A stretch of 34,148 nucleotides of DNA from a virus. Numbering within the stretch: the first letter of the stretch is position 1; each line of letters starts with the position of its first letter. The position numbers and the translations under genes were made by a program. Shown piece by piece: positions 25,890 through 33,330 of the stretch. The notes below the pieces were generated by a model, which did no database searches, had not been told where the DNA came from, and was given only the letters and a program-made list of their open reading frames with translations. The stretch covers positions 1 through 34,148 of IMG/VR virus record IMGVR_UViG_3300005843_000026; one strand, 5' to 3'.

Positions 25890-26605
25890 TGCCGACCGTC
25901 GTCATCCCCGCGCCGCCGGCGCCGTCGAGCTCGAGCCCGGCGCTCGTCGTGCGCGGGCCTGGCGGCGCGCGGATCCTCGGGGTCGCGCAGTCGATCAGCG
26001 CGGACGCGCTCGGGCAGGCGCGCGCCATCCTCGGCGCTGCGAACGCGGGGCTCGCGCCGCTCGGCCCCATCTTCTCGATCATCGACGCGATCCTCGCGGT
26101 GAAGCACTTCGCGGACGCGGTGCCCGGCGTGCTGACGAACCCGGGCGCGGTGACGGACGCGATCGGGCAGCTCGGCGAGAAGGTCGGGCGGCTGCTCTCG
26201 CTCATTCCTCAGCTCGCGGTGCCGATCCTCGTCGTCGACGTGATCGACGTCGTCGTCGCGACGCTCGACGGGCTCGCCGGCGAGCTCGCGAACATCGCCG
26301 CGCAGGAGGAGAGGATCGCGACGGCGCGCGGGCTCTCGCTCACGCTGCCGTCAGCGGCGCAGACGGCGCTGAGCGCGGTGGCCGACGCGGCGGACGCGCA
26401 GGTCACGGTGCGGCGCGCCGACATCGCGTCCGCGCTCGGGCACGTGGGGCCGCTCCTCGAGATCATCGCGGCGTTCTGCCAGATCGTCGGGCTGCCGGCG
26501 CCGGCGGTGAGCGTCGACGCGGGCGGCTCGACGGCGGCGGCGGCCGCGTCGATGCACGCGGCGGCGGCGCAGCTGCACGCGCTCCGGGCGACGATCCCCG
26601 TCTGA
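25889..26605 (+). CDS. hydrophobic helical baseplate-associated protein
   Basis: The 238-aa product starts in the TGATG overlap. A Pro/Ser-rich N-terminus is followed by hydrophobic helices (IFSIIDAILAVKHFADAV and LLSLIPQLAVPILVVDVIDV), a charged coiled helix and an Ala-rich end. The pattern could be membrane-active or a helical bundle. It lies between spike and gp25-like wedge genes, so a baseplate or inner-tail role is likely. I do not recognise a family. Confidence 0.6.
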   Translation: MPTVVIPAPPAPSSSSPALVVRGPGGARILGVAQSISADALGQARAILGAANAGLAPLGPIFSIIDAILAVKHFADAVPGVLTNPGAVTDAIGQLGEKVGRLLSLIPQLAVPILVVDVIDVVVATLDGLAGELANIAAQEERIATARGLSLTLPSAAQTALSAVADAADAQVTVRRADIASALGHVGPLLEIIAAFCQIVGLPAPAVSVDAGGSTAAAAASMHAAAAQLHALRATIPV

Positions 26606-26608
26606 CGG

Positions 26609-26614
26609 TAGGAT
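26609..26614 (+). promoter_or_regulatory. -10 box TAGGAT, leaderless
   Basis: Ends six bases before ATG 26621 of the gp25-like gene. Confidence 0.55.
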
Positions 26615-26620
26615 GCGGCG

Positions 26621-27142
26621 ATGCCGACGGAGTACTTCTGGCCGCTCGACGCCGACCCGGGGCCGCTCCCCGAGGAGCCCGACGTCGTGGTCGACGCGGC
26701 GACGTCCCTCTCGGCTGCACGACCCGCGGCGGACGCTGGGATCCTCTTCCCGCTGAAGAGGTCCGCGGCCGACTACCAGTCGGCGCAGGGCGCCGCCCTC
26801 GTCGAGGCCGACCTGCGGTTCCTCCTCGGCACGCGCTGCGACAAGAACAACGGCGAGACGCAGGGCGAGCTGCCCTGGGAGACCGAGTTCGGCTCCCTGC
26901 TCCCCACGGCGCGGCACCGGAACAACGACGCGGTGCTCGGCGAGCTCGTGCGGCAGTGGACGGCCGACGCGGTCGCGCGATGGATGCCCGACGTCCGCGT
27001 GCGCCGCGTGACGATCGACCGGGCCACGTCGGACACGGGCGAGCGGCTCGTCGCGCGCATCGCGTGGGAGGTCGTCTCGGGCGGCCGCGCGATCGCGGCG
27101 GACGTCGCGTCCGTCCCCCTGACCGCGACGACCGCGCGGTGA
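26621..27142 (+). CDS. baseplate wedge protein, gp25-like
   Basis: The 173-aa product has the GPW/gp25 signature after an N-terminal extension of about 60 residues: ALVEADLRFLLGTRCDKNNG, then ELPWETEFGSLLPTARHRNN and TADAVARWMPDVRVRRVTI. This lysozyme-like wedge initiates sheath assembly and connects hub and wedges. TAGGAT (26609-26614) ends six bases before the ATG, predicting a leaderless mRNA. Confidence 0.88.
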   Translation: MPTEYFWPLDADPGPLPEEPDVVVDAATSLSAARPAADAGILFPLKRSAADYQSAQGAALVEADLRFLLGTRCDKNNGETQGELPWETEFGSLLPTARHRNNDAVLGELVRQWTADAVARWMPDVRVRRVTIDRATSDTGERLVARIAWEVVSGGRAIAADVASVPLTATTAR

Positions 27143-27148
27143 GGGTGC

Positions 27149-27154
27149 TAGTCT
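27149..27154 (+). promoter_or_regulatory. -10 box TGC-TAGTCT, leaderless, captured by HEG2
   Basis: Ends six bases before GTG 27161. Probably the original baseplate J promoter. Confidence 0.6.
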
Positions 27155-27160
27155 CGCGAC

Positions 27161-27826
27161 GTGCCGCTCCTCGGGCCGTCGACCGACTTCGCCTCCGCGC
27201 CGGCGCTGCCCGCGCCGAGCGCCCGTACGGGGCGCCCGCGGCTCGTGGACATCAACACCAAAGCGTTCCGGACCCTCGACGTCGCGGCCGCGTACTGGCT
27301 CGGCTTCATCTTCGCGGACGGGCACGTGTCGGCGCAGACCGGTCGGTGGGAGCTCGTCGTCCACCTCGCCGAAGTCGACCGGCGGCACATCGAGGAACTG
27401 CGCGAGCTCGTCGGCGGGACGATCGGACGGACGTCGACCGGCTCCCGGCTCCGCGTGTGTTCGCGTGCCCTCGTCGAGGATCTTGTGTCGCTCGGCGTCT
27501 ACCCGCGGAAGTCGACGCGATGCGGACGACCCCCCGTCCTCGACGGCGAGCCGCGACGTGCGTTCCTGCGCGGCCTCTTCGACGGCGACGGGTGCCTGCA
27601 CCTCGCGAAGGGCCGGCACCCGATGGCTGCGTTCTGCGGTCGCCCGGAGATCGTCGACTGGTTCGTGCGCGAGGTGTCGGTCTCGCCGGTCAGCTTCCGG
27701 GATCGCGGAGTGACGCGCTACGCGCAGTGGTCGTCGAGCACCGCTGCTCGCGCCCTCGCGACGTTCCTCTACGGCGGACCTGGTCCGCGGCTCGCGCGCA
27801 AGGCGGCTCTCGCGGAGGCGTTCTGA
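27161..27826 (+). CDS. LAGLIDADG homing endonuclease carrying the baseplate J start (HEG2)
   Basis: The 221-aa product has two LAGLIDADG motifs, YWLGFIFADG (residues 45-54) and FLRGLFDGDG (135-144), with the acidic metal-binding residues present. It would act as a monomeric site-specific nuclease. Its first ten residues, MPLLGPSTDF, are the N-terminus of baseplate J, which begins MPLLGPSTDY at 27826. The gene uses the promoter TAGTCT (27149-27154) and leaderless GTG that presumably belonged to J. Its last codons contain GGAGG (27814-27818) seven bases before the TGATG overlap with J. There are no intein splicing residues and no exon interruption, so it is a free-standing HEG that captured a gene start. 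Confidence 0.9.
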   Translation: MPLLGPSTDFASAPALPAPSARTGRPRLVDINTKAFRTLDVAAAYWLGFIFADGHVSAQTGRWELVVHLAEVDRRHIEELRELVGGTIGRTSTGSRLRVCSRALVEDLVSLGVYPRKSTRCGRPPVLDGEPRRAFLRGLFDGDGCLHLAKGRHPMAAFCGRPEIVDWFVREVSVSPVSFRDRGVTRYAQWSSSTAARALATFLYGGPGPRLARKAALAEAF

Positions 27827-29340
27827 TGCCTCTCCTCGGCCCCAGCACAGACTATACTGATAAAGACTTCGACGCCCTCGTCGCGCGTATCAGGAGTCTG
27901 ATCCAGACGGCGTTCCCGGAGTGGACGTCGCAGCGCGTCGCGAACTTCGGTAACACCCTCGTCTACGGGTTCGGGTTCGTGGGCGACGTGCTCACCAAGT
28001 ACCAGGACAACCAGGCGGCCGAGGCGTTCTGGGGGCGCGCCACGCAGCGACGGAACCTGATCGCGCTCGGCAAGCTGATCACGTTCGCGCCGCGCGGGAA
28101 CACGGCGTCGATCGTCGAGGTGGGGCTCACGCTCGCGTCGCCGACCGCCGGCGACACGGTGGTCCCCGCGGGCGCCATCGTACGCACCGAGTCGCCGACG
28201 TCGCCGGTGCGGTTCCGGCTGCTCGCCGACGCGCCCGCGATCGCGGCGAGCACCACGGGACCGGTGCTCGTCGAGGCGGAGAACAGCGAGACGCGCGAGG
28301 AGCTCTTCACGTCGACGGGGCTGCCGAACCAGTCGGTGCAGCTCTCGGGGACGCCGTTCCTCGACGGCACGCTCGAGCTCTCGGCGGCGAACGGCGACTA
28401 CGAGGTCGTCGAGGACCTGCTCGACTCGGGCCCGACGGACCGGCACGTGACGGTCAGCGTCGACCAGAACGACCGCGCGACGCTGCGGTTCGGGAACGGG
28501 ACGGCGGGGCAGATCCCGACGGGCACCATCACGGCGACGTACAGCGTCGGCGGCGGCTCGGCCGGCATGGTCGACGCGGGCAAGGTGACGCGCATCGAGG
28601 GCTCGTTCGTCGACGAGCTTGGTAACTCGGTGCGGGTCCTGGTTACCAACCCGGCGCGCTCGAGCGTCGCGCTCGACCGCATGACCGTCGAGGAGATGCG
28701 CCTCGCCGGGCCGAAGTCCCTGCGCGTGCTGACGCGCACCGTCGCGCGCGAGGACTACGAGATCAACGCGCTCCGGGTGCCCGGCGTCGCGCGCGCGCTG
28801 CAGCTCACGAGCGACCAGGACCCGTCGATCCCGGAGAACAGCGGGATCCTCTTCGTCGTGCCCGTGGGCGGCGGCGCGCCGTCGACGGGGCTCAAGGACG
28901 CGGTGCTCGAGATGGTGACGATGACGTACCCGCGCACCGTCACCTTCCGCGAGCTCGTGCAGGACCCGTCGTACCTCACCGTGAACGTGTCGACGCGGGT
29001 CTACTTCGCGCGCGGAGCGACGAAGGCCACCGTCGCGGCCGACATCCGCGCGCGGCTCGCCCGAGCGTTCGCGATCCAGCCGGCGCCCGAGGACGCGGAG
29101 CTCGCCGTCGGGATCGACTTCGGGTACTACCTGCGCGAGGCGGACGACACGACGGCGAGCATCGCGTGGAGCGACGTCGAGAACGTGGTGCGCGACACGA
29201 CGGGCGTGCGCAAGGTCGACGCCGGCGCGAACGGGTTGCTCCTCAACGGCATCCGCGCCGACGTCCCGATCGCGCTCCGGCAGTTCCCCGAGCTCGGGAC
29301 GATCGAGATCGTCGACGCCGACACGGAGCTCTCGCTGTGA
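27826..29340 (+). CDS. baseplate J-like wedge protein
   Basis: The 504-aa product opens with the gpJ/gp6-like pattern DFDALVARIRSLIQTAFPEW, VANFGNTLVYGFGFVGDVL and the helix AFWGRATQRRNLIALGKLI. It then has the usual central beta domain and C-terminal AREDYEINALRVPGVARAL and FRELVQDPSYLTVNVSTRVY, up to VDAGANGLLLNG. It forms the wedge arms of the baseplate. Codons 2-24 contain many codons unusual for this genome (CCT, AGC ACA, TAT ACT GAT AAA, CGT, AGG AGT). They encode the same N-terminus as the upstream HEG. Translation is probably coupled to the HEG by the TGATG overlap. Confidence 0.93.
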   Translation: MPLLGPSTDYTDKDFDALVARIRSLIQTAFPEWTSQRVANFGNTLVYGFGFVGDVLTKYQDNQAAEAFWGRATQRRNLIALGKLITFAPRGNTASIVEVGLTLASPTAGDTVVPAGAIVRTESPTSPVRFRLLADAPAIAASTTGPVLVEAENSETREELFTSTGLPNQSVQLSGTPFLDGTLELSAANGDYEVVEDLLDSGPTDRHVTVSVDQNDRATLRFGNGTAGQIPTGTITATYSVGGGSAGMVDAGKVTRIEGSFVDELGNSVRVLVTNPARSSVALDRMTVEEMRLAGPKSLRVLTRTVAREDYEINALRVPGVARALQLTSDQDPSIPENSGILFVVPVGGGAPSTGLKDAVLEMVTMTYPRTVTFRELVQDPSYLTVNVSTRVYFARGATKATVAADIRARLARAFAIQPAPEDAELAVGIDFGYYLREADDTTASIAWSDVENVVRDTTGVRKVDAGANGLLLNGIRADVPIALRQFPELGTIEIVDADTELSL

Positions 29341-30221
29341 GCGGCCCCGGCTGGCCGCTCCTCTGGCCGGTGACGTGGCCGACGGGCCCGTCGCTGCCGC
29401 CGCTCGACAACCCGGGCTACGAGATCGCCGGCGTCAACCCGGGCGACGCCGACTCGTGGAACTTCTCGACGAACCTCACGGCGGAGCGGCTCGCGCTCTT
29501 CGGCGCCGCGTCGCCGCCCGACGAGTGGGAGGGCTTCGAGGCCGGGTGGACGAACGACACGTACCTCTTCGAGTTCGACCCGCTGACCGACCTCGCGTCG
29601 GCGCTCTTCGACGACACCGTCGGCGAGGGCGAGTCCTTCGAGGACTTCGAGGAGGGATGGTCGAGCAACGAGACGTACGCCTTCGAGATCGGCTCCGTCG
29701 ACCCGGCGGTGTTCGCGTCGACCGACGAGTTCGAGTCCTTCGAGTCCGGGTGGGACAACGACGTCTACGACCTCGCGATGGGCTCGACGACGGCGGCGCT
29801 CTTCGACTCGGCGCCCGAGGACGTCGAGGACCTCGAGGAGGGCTGGGCCAACGACGCCTACGACTTCACGATGGGCGCGGCGACCGCGGCCGCGTTCGAC
29901 GGCGCGAGCCCGGAGAACTTCGAGGACTTCGAGGAGACGTACACGAAGCAGCAGGTCGCGGCAGATCCGGGCACCGACAAGCTGACGCTGACCGCGCACG
30001 GGTTCCTGAACGGGCAGCGTGTGACCTTCGAGCTCGTCGGCGCCGGCGCGATGCCCGGTGGGCTGAACCCGACGTACCTCTACTTCGTGGTCAACAAGAC
30101 GGCGAACGACTTCCAGGTCGCGCTCGTCTCGGGCGGCGCGGCCGTCGACCTCACCGACACGGGCAGCGGCTCGACTTTCGTCGCGCGAGACCCGACGCTC
30201 TACTGGAACATCGACCCCTAG
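29337..30221 (+). CDS. tail protein with FExGW tandem repeats
   Basis: The 294-aa product starts at a GTG in a GTGA overlap with baseplate J. It contains five acidic repeats near residues 62, 99, 131, 161 and 193, with consensus E-x-F-E-x-F-E-x-G-W then N-x-x-Y-x-F (conserved Trp at 71, 108, 139 and 170; the fifth unit is degenerate). The C-terminal 90 residues form a beta domain (DKLTLTAHGFLNGQRVTFEL) like small fibre or baseplate surface domains. It is probably a peripheral baseplate or fibre-attachment protein. A copy of the palindrome follows the stop. Confidence 0.72.
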   Translation: MSGPGWPLLWPVTWPTGPSLPPLDNPGYEIAGVNPGDADSWNFSTNLTAERLALFGAASPPDEWEGFEAGWTNDTYLFEFDPLTDLASALFDDTVGEGESFEDFEEGWSSNETYAFEIGSVDPAVFASTDEFESFESGWDNDVYDLAMGSTTAALFDSAPEDVEDLEEGWANDAYDFTMGAATAAAFDGASPENFEDFEETYTKQQVAADPGTDKLTLTAHGFLNGQRVTFELVGAGAMPGGLNPTYLYFVVNKTANDFQVALVSGGAAVDLTDTGSGSTFVARDPTLYWNIDP

Positions 30222-31563: not shown

Positions 31564-33330
31564 GTGGCGGATACGACGACGCTGCAGCGGCGGCCGGGCA
31601 CGAACAGCCTGCGCGTCGTCCCGACCGGGTGGACGGCACCGGAGGGCACGCACGTCTTCGTGCTCGGCTCCGACGAGCCAGGCTACACGGGCCGCTTCCA
31701 GTCGGGCGACTACGTCTCGGTCGACCAGGACGGCGGGTGGGGCGACTCGTTCCACGTGCGCGTGAAGGCGCGGCTGCGCGGGCCGACGACCGTCCCGACC
31801 CCGACCGACGACTGGAAGTGGTCGGCGATCGGTCGCATCGGCTCCGAGGTCGCGTGGGCGATCGACCTGAAGCAGCCGCGCCACGTCGACGACCTCATCG
31901 ACCTCGCGTTCAACGTGACGGGCTACGTGCCCCCGCAGAACTTCAAGGTCTACCTGCAGCTCGTCGGGCCCGGGCCGGGGAACTACGCCGAGGCGGAGAT
32001 CCCGGCGGTCTACCTCGACGAGTGGACGTTCGACCCGACGGATGGGCTCTTCCTCACGAACCGCTCGCCGCAGCCGGGCGAGACGGGCGTCAACCGCGAC
32101 CTCGACGTGAACCTCGACGTGTCCGACACCGCGTCCGACATCGACGAGACGAACACGCAGATCTACGTGCAGGGCGTCCTCGCGTACGACGGGGCCGCCG
32201 GCGGCGCGCAGCCGGGCTTCGACGTGTCGCCGATCGCGCACCCGGTGCTCGCCGGCGTCTCGCGCTGGCGCATCAAGCGCACGCTGCACGACCTCTACCC
32301 GAGCGAGACGGTGGTCGAGGTCCGCGTCGTGTCGCGGAACCTCCTCGGCACGCACGTGCTCGACGAGACGTACAGCTACACGACGGCCGACGAGACGGCG
32401 CCCGTCGTGATCCAGGCGCAGTCGCGCGACCACAAGGTCGTGCGCGTCGTCTTCGACGAGCCCGTCGACGACTCGGCGCTCGAGCCGACCAGGTACGTCT
32501 TCGAGCGCCGCGAGGGCCCGAGCGTCGCGGTGACCGCGGTGAGCGTGGACCGCGTGACGTCGAGCGTGGTCGACGTGAACCTCGACGTGACGATCACGCG
32601 CGCGCTGCTCTACCGGCTCACCGTGACGGGCGTGCTCGACGTGCTCGGGAACGAGATCCTCGAGCCGGGCAGCAGCGTCGACTTCCGCGGCTACGAGTGC
32701 GCCTTCCCGGTCGAGCGCGACTTCGAGTTCTGGAAGATGCTCTCGCGCATCGCTCGCGACGAGGACGACGACGACACGCTCTTCCGCACCGCGAGCGTCG
32801 TGCAGGAGATCATCGACACGCTGCTCTGCGAGATCGACCGGTGGACCGACATCGTCGACGTGGACGTCGCGGCGGAGCGCTACGTCGACCACATGCTCAT
32901 CGGGCTCGGGAACCCGTTCGACTTCGACCTCGACCTCGAGGACAAGCGGCGGCTCGTCCGGACGCTCGTGCGCATCTACCAGCGCAAGGGCACGACGCTC
33001 GGCATCATCGACGTGGTCCGGTTCTTCCTCGGGCTCGAGGTGACCATCGACGAGTGGAACACGAGCACGGGGTGGATCCTCGGCGACTCGGAGCTCGGCG
33101 TCGACACGATCCTCGGGCCGAGCGACCAGCGCGCGCTCTACACGTTCGACGTCGTGAGCGTCGTGACGCTCACCGACGAGCAGCGCGACCGCATCCGCGA
33201 GCTGGTCGACTACATGAAGCCCGCGCACACCCACCTCGGCTCGATCATCGAGCCGACGCCGCCCGACGTGATCGACCACGTCGAGCTCGGGCTCTCCGAG
33301 CTCGGCGGCGACGAGTTCATGCTGCACTGA
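31564..33330 (+). CDS. gpI-like tail protein with inserted Ig-like domain
   Basis: The 588-aa product ends with the P2 gpI / phage tail family pattern: YVDHMLIGLGNPFDFDLDLE, YQRKGTTLGIIDVVRFFLG, WILGDSELGVDTILG and VDYMKPAHTHLGSI. The first 180 residues form a beta domain. A middle segment (about 180-380) holds Ig-like strands (SPQPGETGVNRDLDVNLDVS, APVVIQAQSRDHKVVRVVFD) typical of bacterial Ig-like domains. It joins baseplate wedges to fibres. TAGTCT (31552-31557) ends six bases before GTG 31564, predicting a leaderless mRNA. Confidence 0.87.
   Translation: MADTTTLQRRPGTNSLRVVPTGWTAPEGTHVFVLGSDEPGYTGRFQSGDYVSVDQDGGWGDSFHVRVKARLRGPTTVPTPTDDWKWSAIGRIGSEVAWAIDLKQPRHVDDLIDLAFNVTGYVPPQNFKVYLQLVGPGPGNYAEAEIPAVYLDEWTFDPTDGLFLTNRSPQPGETGVNRDLDVNLDVSDTASDIDETNTQIYVQGVLAYDGAAGGAQPGFDVSPIAHPVLAGVSRWRIKRTLHDLYPSETVVEVRVVSRNLLGTHVLDETYSYTTADETAPVVIQAQSRDHKVVRVVFDEPVDDSALEPTRYVFERREGPSVAVTAVSVDRVTSSVVDVNLDVTITRALLYRLTVTGVLDVLGNEILEPGSSVDFRGYECAFPVERDFEFWKMLSRIARDEDDDDTLFRTASVVQEIIDTLLCEIDRWTDIVDVDVAAERYVDHMLIGLGNPFDFDLDLEDKRRLVRTLVRIYQRKGTTLGIIDVVRFFLGLEVTIDEWNTSTGWILGDSELGVDTILGPSDQRALYTFDVVSVVTLTDEQRDRIRELVDYMKPAHTHLGSIIEPTPPDVIDHVELGLSELGGDEFMLH

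Follow-up and report, generated by a model that had tools for sequence, protein, structure and literature searches.

Mobile open reading frames that carry a replacement for part of the gene they invade are known from fungi. In Allomyces (atp6), Glomus (atp6, atp9, cox2, nad3) and Phlebia (atp6, cox2), such reading frames are accompanied by replacement gene ends (PMC3630166, PMC4019555); the C-terminal ends replaced in Glomus show mainly synonymous differences (PMC3630166). In T-even phages, the homing endonuclease genes (HEGs) mobE (in nrdA of Aeh1), mobA (in gene 60 of T4) and the seg genes are intron-less, are read from upstream phage promoters and show stop/start overlaps with translational coupling (PMC2988022); mobE and mobA leave the interrupted gene as two proteins, and no replacement start was described for them (PMC2988022). 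The locus analysed here, the start of a phage baseplate J gene, shares with the T-even genes the lack of an intron, the upstream phage promoter, the stop/start overlap and, presumably, the coupling, but it has a replacement start. Our searches of open-access papers found no such 5′-end version in phages or fungi, in agreement with an earlier note on this DNA, which knew of no described phage example.

The window is the whole IMG/VR record of 34,148 bases with a GC content of 72%, and all features of the locus lie on the plus strand. A gene for a gp25-like baseplate wedge protein (26621..27142; Pfam GPW_gp25, E=2.1e-5, under the curated cut-off), which in relatives is found directly upstream of the baseplate J gene (J), is followed by a −10-like box, TAGTCT (27149..27154), whose end is 6 nt away from the GTG of a LAGLIDADG HEG encoding 221 amino acids (27161..27826; Pfam LAGLIDADG_3, PF14528, E=1.6e-10). 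The HEG starts at 27161 with GTG CCG CTC CTC GGG CCG TCG ACC GAC TTC, reads VPLLGPSTDF and ends with a TGA at 27824-27826. J, as now translated (27826..29340; 504 amino acids; Pfam Baseplate_J, E=1.8e-9), lies in a different frame, starts at 27826 with ATG CCT CTC CTC GGC CCC AGC ACA GAC TAT and has the N-terminus MPLLGPSTDYTDKDFD. Counting the GTG start as Met, nine of the ten residues are identical in the two proteins; seven of the ten codons differ (start, Pro2, Gly5, Pro6, Ser7 with TCG versus AGC, Thr8 and Phe/Tyr10). The last HEG codons contain GGAGG (27814..27818), a Shine-Dalgarno-like site for J 7 nt ahead of its ATG, and the HEG stop and the J start overlap in TGATG (27824..27828). 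These starts, codons and overlaps had been described in the earlier note, and on re-reading every one of them was correct. The name "HEG2" used there implied a further HEG, yet a search of the window with the family profile yielded only this one. The locus is known as one genotype, since a second contig (L002) is identical across 11 kb.

The HEG product matches phrog_4645 (E=1.1e-26). Its first LAGLIDADG motif, AYWLGFIFADG with D53 (27290..27322), is invariant in the family alignment and its second, FLRGLFDGDG with D143 (27563..27592), is at least 90% conserved; both catalytic acids are thus retained across the family. The AlphaFold model has a pLDDT of 89. Residues 1-13 and 15-17 fall below 50, and the captured J leader is therefore probably a disordered tail in the model. 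Most family members have a helix-turn-helix-like region at the N terminus; it is absent here and the J leader stands in its place. Foldseek gave I-AniI (2.3e-8), and structure and sequence searches together point to I-AniI, 2dch and I-HjeMI, which share the fold and the two-motif monomer with the window's HEG; those enzymes are encoded in introns, whereas this one is not. The two acidic motifs, the fold and an insertion that is missing from the same site of relatives assign the gene to the LAGLIDADG class.

Evidence for the origin of the HEG start comes from 70 loci with J relatives in IMG/VR. Most relatives have gp25 and J separated by −4 to 83 nt, whereas 683 nt separate them in the window, and a LAGLIDADG HEG was found at the gp25/J site in none of the other 69 loci. 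The closest relatives with an empty site, L003 and L004, have J proteins that are 59% and 60% identical, and both carry a leaderless-type box before J. A TAnnnT box that ends 6-7 nt ahead of the J start is present in 10 of 58 non-redundant relatives, compared with about 2.5% by chance; a box at this distance from the start codon is expected for leaderless mRNAs. Because relatives have the same box before J that now precedes the HEG, the HEG most likely starts where the ancestral J did, and TAGTCT would be the −10-like box of the original, leaderless-type J promoter. The gp25 synteny and the position of the promoter in HEG-free relatives thus lend good support to the earlier proposal that the element takes over both promoter and start and provides a new start in return. 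The promoter is also typical of the window, as had been stated: similar boxes precede several other genes, and TAGTCT itself recurs at the same spacing before the reading frame at 31564. In all, TAnnnT-type boxes were seen 6-7 nt ahead of the starts at 2156, 5303, 11775, 14418, 26621 (gp25) and 31564.

Two further observations were made on the J relatives. Inserts of about 450-2480 nt between gp25 and J also occur in L007, L011, L012, L014, L016, L023, L036, L042, L053 and L069, and those of L011 and L069 contain reverse-strand reading frames with HNH-like Cys/His motifs, as judged by eye; the gp25/J junction may be a hotspot of insertion. The J relatives from cellular genomes (L110-L135) are mostly from Myxococcota or deltaproteobacterial MAGs, which is a hint at the host.

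The direction of the change follows from the codons. Over codons 2-9 the HEG copy is two synonymous codons away from L003 and one from L004, whereas the present J copy is five and four away, respectively. It was this codon-level comparison that decided between the copies; raw nucleotide identity over the first 30 nt, 24 for both copies against L004, did not separate them. The HEG's first ten codons (27161..27190), directly followed by the insertion point, are apparently the captured native J start, and the same peptide is written in other codons in the replacement J 5′ end (27826..27897, codons 1 to about 24). GC3 is 1.0 in the HEG's first ten codons, 0.89 in the HEG and 0.98 in the rest of J, but only 0.67 in J codons 2-25, where codons 2, 8, 10, 11, 12, 13, 21, 23 and 24 are rare. 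None of 100,000 synonymous draws was as poor as J codons 2-25. Scored against each gene's own codon usage, the J start has a z of −7.83, compared with a mean of −0.91 (sd 1.20, minimum −3.64) for 76 non-redundant relatives. We rely on this comparison with relatives and set aside the window count of a first codon scan, whose reference included reading frames that are doubtful. The unusual J codons reported earlier, up to about codon 24, are therefore a true outlier, and native-like codons in the HEG copy together with foreign-looking ones in J back the capture and replacement of the start. A HEG-less relative with the same recoded start, named in the earlier note as the case that would speak against its proposal, was sought among the 70 J relatives and was not found.

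The HEG is inserted about ten codons into J, at the DNA for the highly conserved DYTDKDFD motif. In 66 of 67 relatives from GC-rich loci the core of this DNA has at most two mismatches to GACTACACSGACAAGGACTTCGAC; the window has four, although its genome is GC-rich. In a 22-bp stretch with the insertion point at its centre, six positions separate the new copy from L003 and five separate it from L004; between L003 and L004 themselves there are four differences. Since the replacement site deviates from the native target at five to six of 22 positions, it probably escapes cutting by the HEG product.

Altogether, we consider it probable, with some reserve, that the HEG inserted in J, took its promoter and start, and travels with a replacement 5′ end that probably resists cutting. 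The HEG would be read in frame from the original leaderless-type promoter and start of J and so would need no expression signals of its own. Behind it, translation would reinitiate at the overlapping ATG with the help of the Shine-Dalgarno-like site and pass through about 24 recoded codons before native J resumes. After cleavage of an empty site, HEG and replacement 5′ end would home as one unit into HEG-free phages via double-strand-break repair, and the replacement would keep J intact and, its site being probably uncut, immune to the nuclease.

Whether such elements occur at other genes was addressed by scanning 105 non-redundant related HEG loci for a translated or DNA duplication flanking the HEG. 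Besides the window, the only convincing match was L145 (2701-3678). There, the HEG stands ahead of a DUF1257 gene (Pfam 5.3e-9) and is flanked by a 52-nt direct repeat (87%) of the DUF1257 start region, one copy being left of the HEG (2701-2752) and the other at the restored DUF1257 start. For one Ser the left copy has TCA and the right copy AGT, the peptide SEFTV is retained, and one nearby residue differs (Gln/Thr), though this residue may lie ahead of the true start. The two copies share all 13 nt beside the junction, which means that recoding at this place is not a general feature. The HEG closest to that of L145 (39% identical), in L218 (2327-3661), likewise adjoins a DUF1257 start. Its open frame begins IFSVVKVGMTA, which ranks first of 11,418 windows against the DUF1257 start, the gene itself aside; this left copy was missed with a 14-residue window because of a stop and found with an 11-residue window chosen post hoc, so that L218 is only suggestive of a third case. 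A class of phage HEGs that targets conserved gene 5′ ends, seizes promoter and start, carries a recoded nuclease-resistant start and has at least two targets (J and DUF1257) is conceivable, and we propose it tentatively; its members would be nature's equivalent of engineered home-and-rescue drives. Other matches were discarded: L293 (1165-3172) holds a pair of consecutive HEG units whose 3′ ends resemble those of group I introns (repeated sequence, judged by eye), in L212 and L159 HEG motifs pair with each other as in tandem HEGs, and the match in L079 lies within probable chance reading frames.

HEG-free DUF1257 relatives are L297, L298 and L300. In L297, L300 (~1983-2010) and the left copy of L145, no ATG, GTG or TTG occurs from the preceding in-frame stop up to the conserved ISE(Y/F) start, and a strong Shine-Dalgarno-like run stands right ahead of an ATC or ATT. 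To judge from their sequences, these DUF1257 genes may start at AUC or AUU.

The altered J codons extend about 42 nt beyond the insertion point and thus past the typical 22-bp LAGLIDADG site. This favours a donor allele, and import from a divergent allele is, as far as the codons tell, no less likely than recoding by selection. From the earlier proposal, capture and replacement of the start therefore stand, while "recoded" may have to be read as imported and not as selected codon by codon. Taken further, the same observation leads to the most serious alternative, a simple hybrid gene: repair of the break would have drawn on the J 5′ end of another, less GC-rich phage, the foreign codons merely mark the donor, and protection is incidental or absent. 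The change does run beyond the likely recognition site, to codon 24; natural J pairs with seven of eight identical residues and five to seven synonymous differences exist; the repeat of L145 has diverged in its non-coding part too; and the same origin was argued for Allomyces and Glomus (PMC3630166). However, a donor allele with J's altered codons was found nowhere among about 95 J relatives, of which only L003, L004 and L018 have no more than two residues that differ from PLLGPSTD. We regard a hybrid gene devoid of any role in immunity as unlikely, though it deserves to be taken seriously.

Two similar starts would also result if the HEG had landed between gp25 and J and only later copied the start of J, the present J start then being the original one. 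Yet the codons of relatives and of the genome sit in the HEG copy and not in the J copy, and the leaderless-type box precedes the HEG, where relatives have J; this order of events is very improbable. We give similarly little credence to a duplication of the J start in place, at insertion, with codons then changed for Shine-Dalgarno initiation. J has indeed switched from leaderless to Shine-Dalgarno initiation, and AT-rich starts can favour initiation. However, compared with synonymous draws, the initiation region shows no clear loss of structure (fraction 0.20), which argues against a pure translation effect, and relatives with Shine-Dalgarno starts lack such codons. A codon ramp for translation initiation found no support for the same reason, and because the J start is an outlier compared with relatives.

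A group I intron or intein whose reading frame is fused to the upstream coding part can hardly be upheld: the HEG does share its frame with the captured start, like many intron reading frames, but no Rfam match was obtained at E<=1 over 26400-29400, the HEG has its own stop, and J follows in a different frame with a complete Shine-Dalgarno start. An intein, which needs a frame shared with both host parts, is excluded by the stop at 27824 and the change of frame. Chance likeness of the two N-termini is negligible, since the match lies exactly at both N-termini with a score of 47, whereas mismatched-locus controls reach 38 at the 99th percentile and 45 at most (the latter being the best match anywhere in two flanks), and gp25 synteny and promoter position also speak against it.

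With capture and replacement of the J start as the preferred reading, the locus illustrates how the first codons of a gene that the phage needs can be invaded by a selfish nuclease that supplies a spare start and so does not kill its host. It also calls for caution in annotation: the N terminus of a HEG can be a captured start, and the start of the downstream gene can look foreign. Free-standing T-even enzymes cut far from their insertion site, hundreds of bases from the HEG and in a neighbouring gene, whereas the anatomy here suggests a target at the insertion point itself. In the engineered, Cas9-based HomeR home-and-rescue drives (PMC7968924), the nuclease likewise travels with a recoded piece of its target that restores function; the likeness is one of logic only, and the rescue role at the J locus is a presumed one. 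If it is true that the altered start is not cut, the locus would be a natural home-and-rescue element, and the origin of rescue copies would become testable. The fungal mobile reading frames resemble the J locus in that an endonuclease reading frame lies in a conserved gene and a diverged duplicate end restores the protein. The earlier note had called this parallel a loose one; it is closer than that, since the Glomus copies, too, differ mostly by synonymous changes (PMC3630166). The fungal elements replace the 3′ (C-terminal) end, with the endonuclease behind it; in this phage it is the 5′ end, and promoter and start are taken as well. The J locus is thus the 5′-end mirror of the fungal mobile reading frames with replacement 3′ ends.
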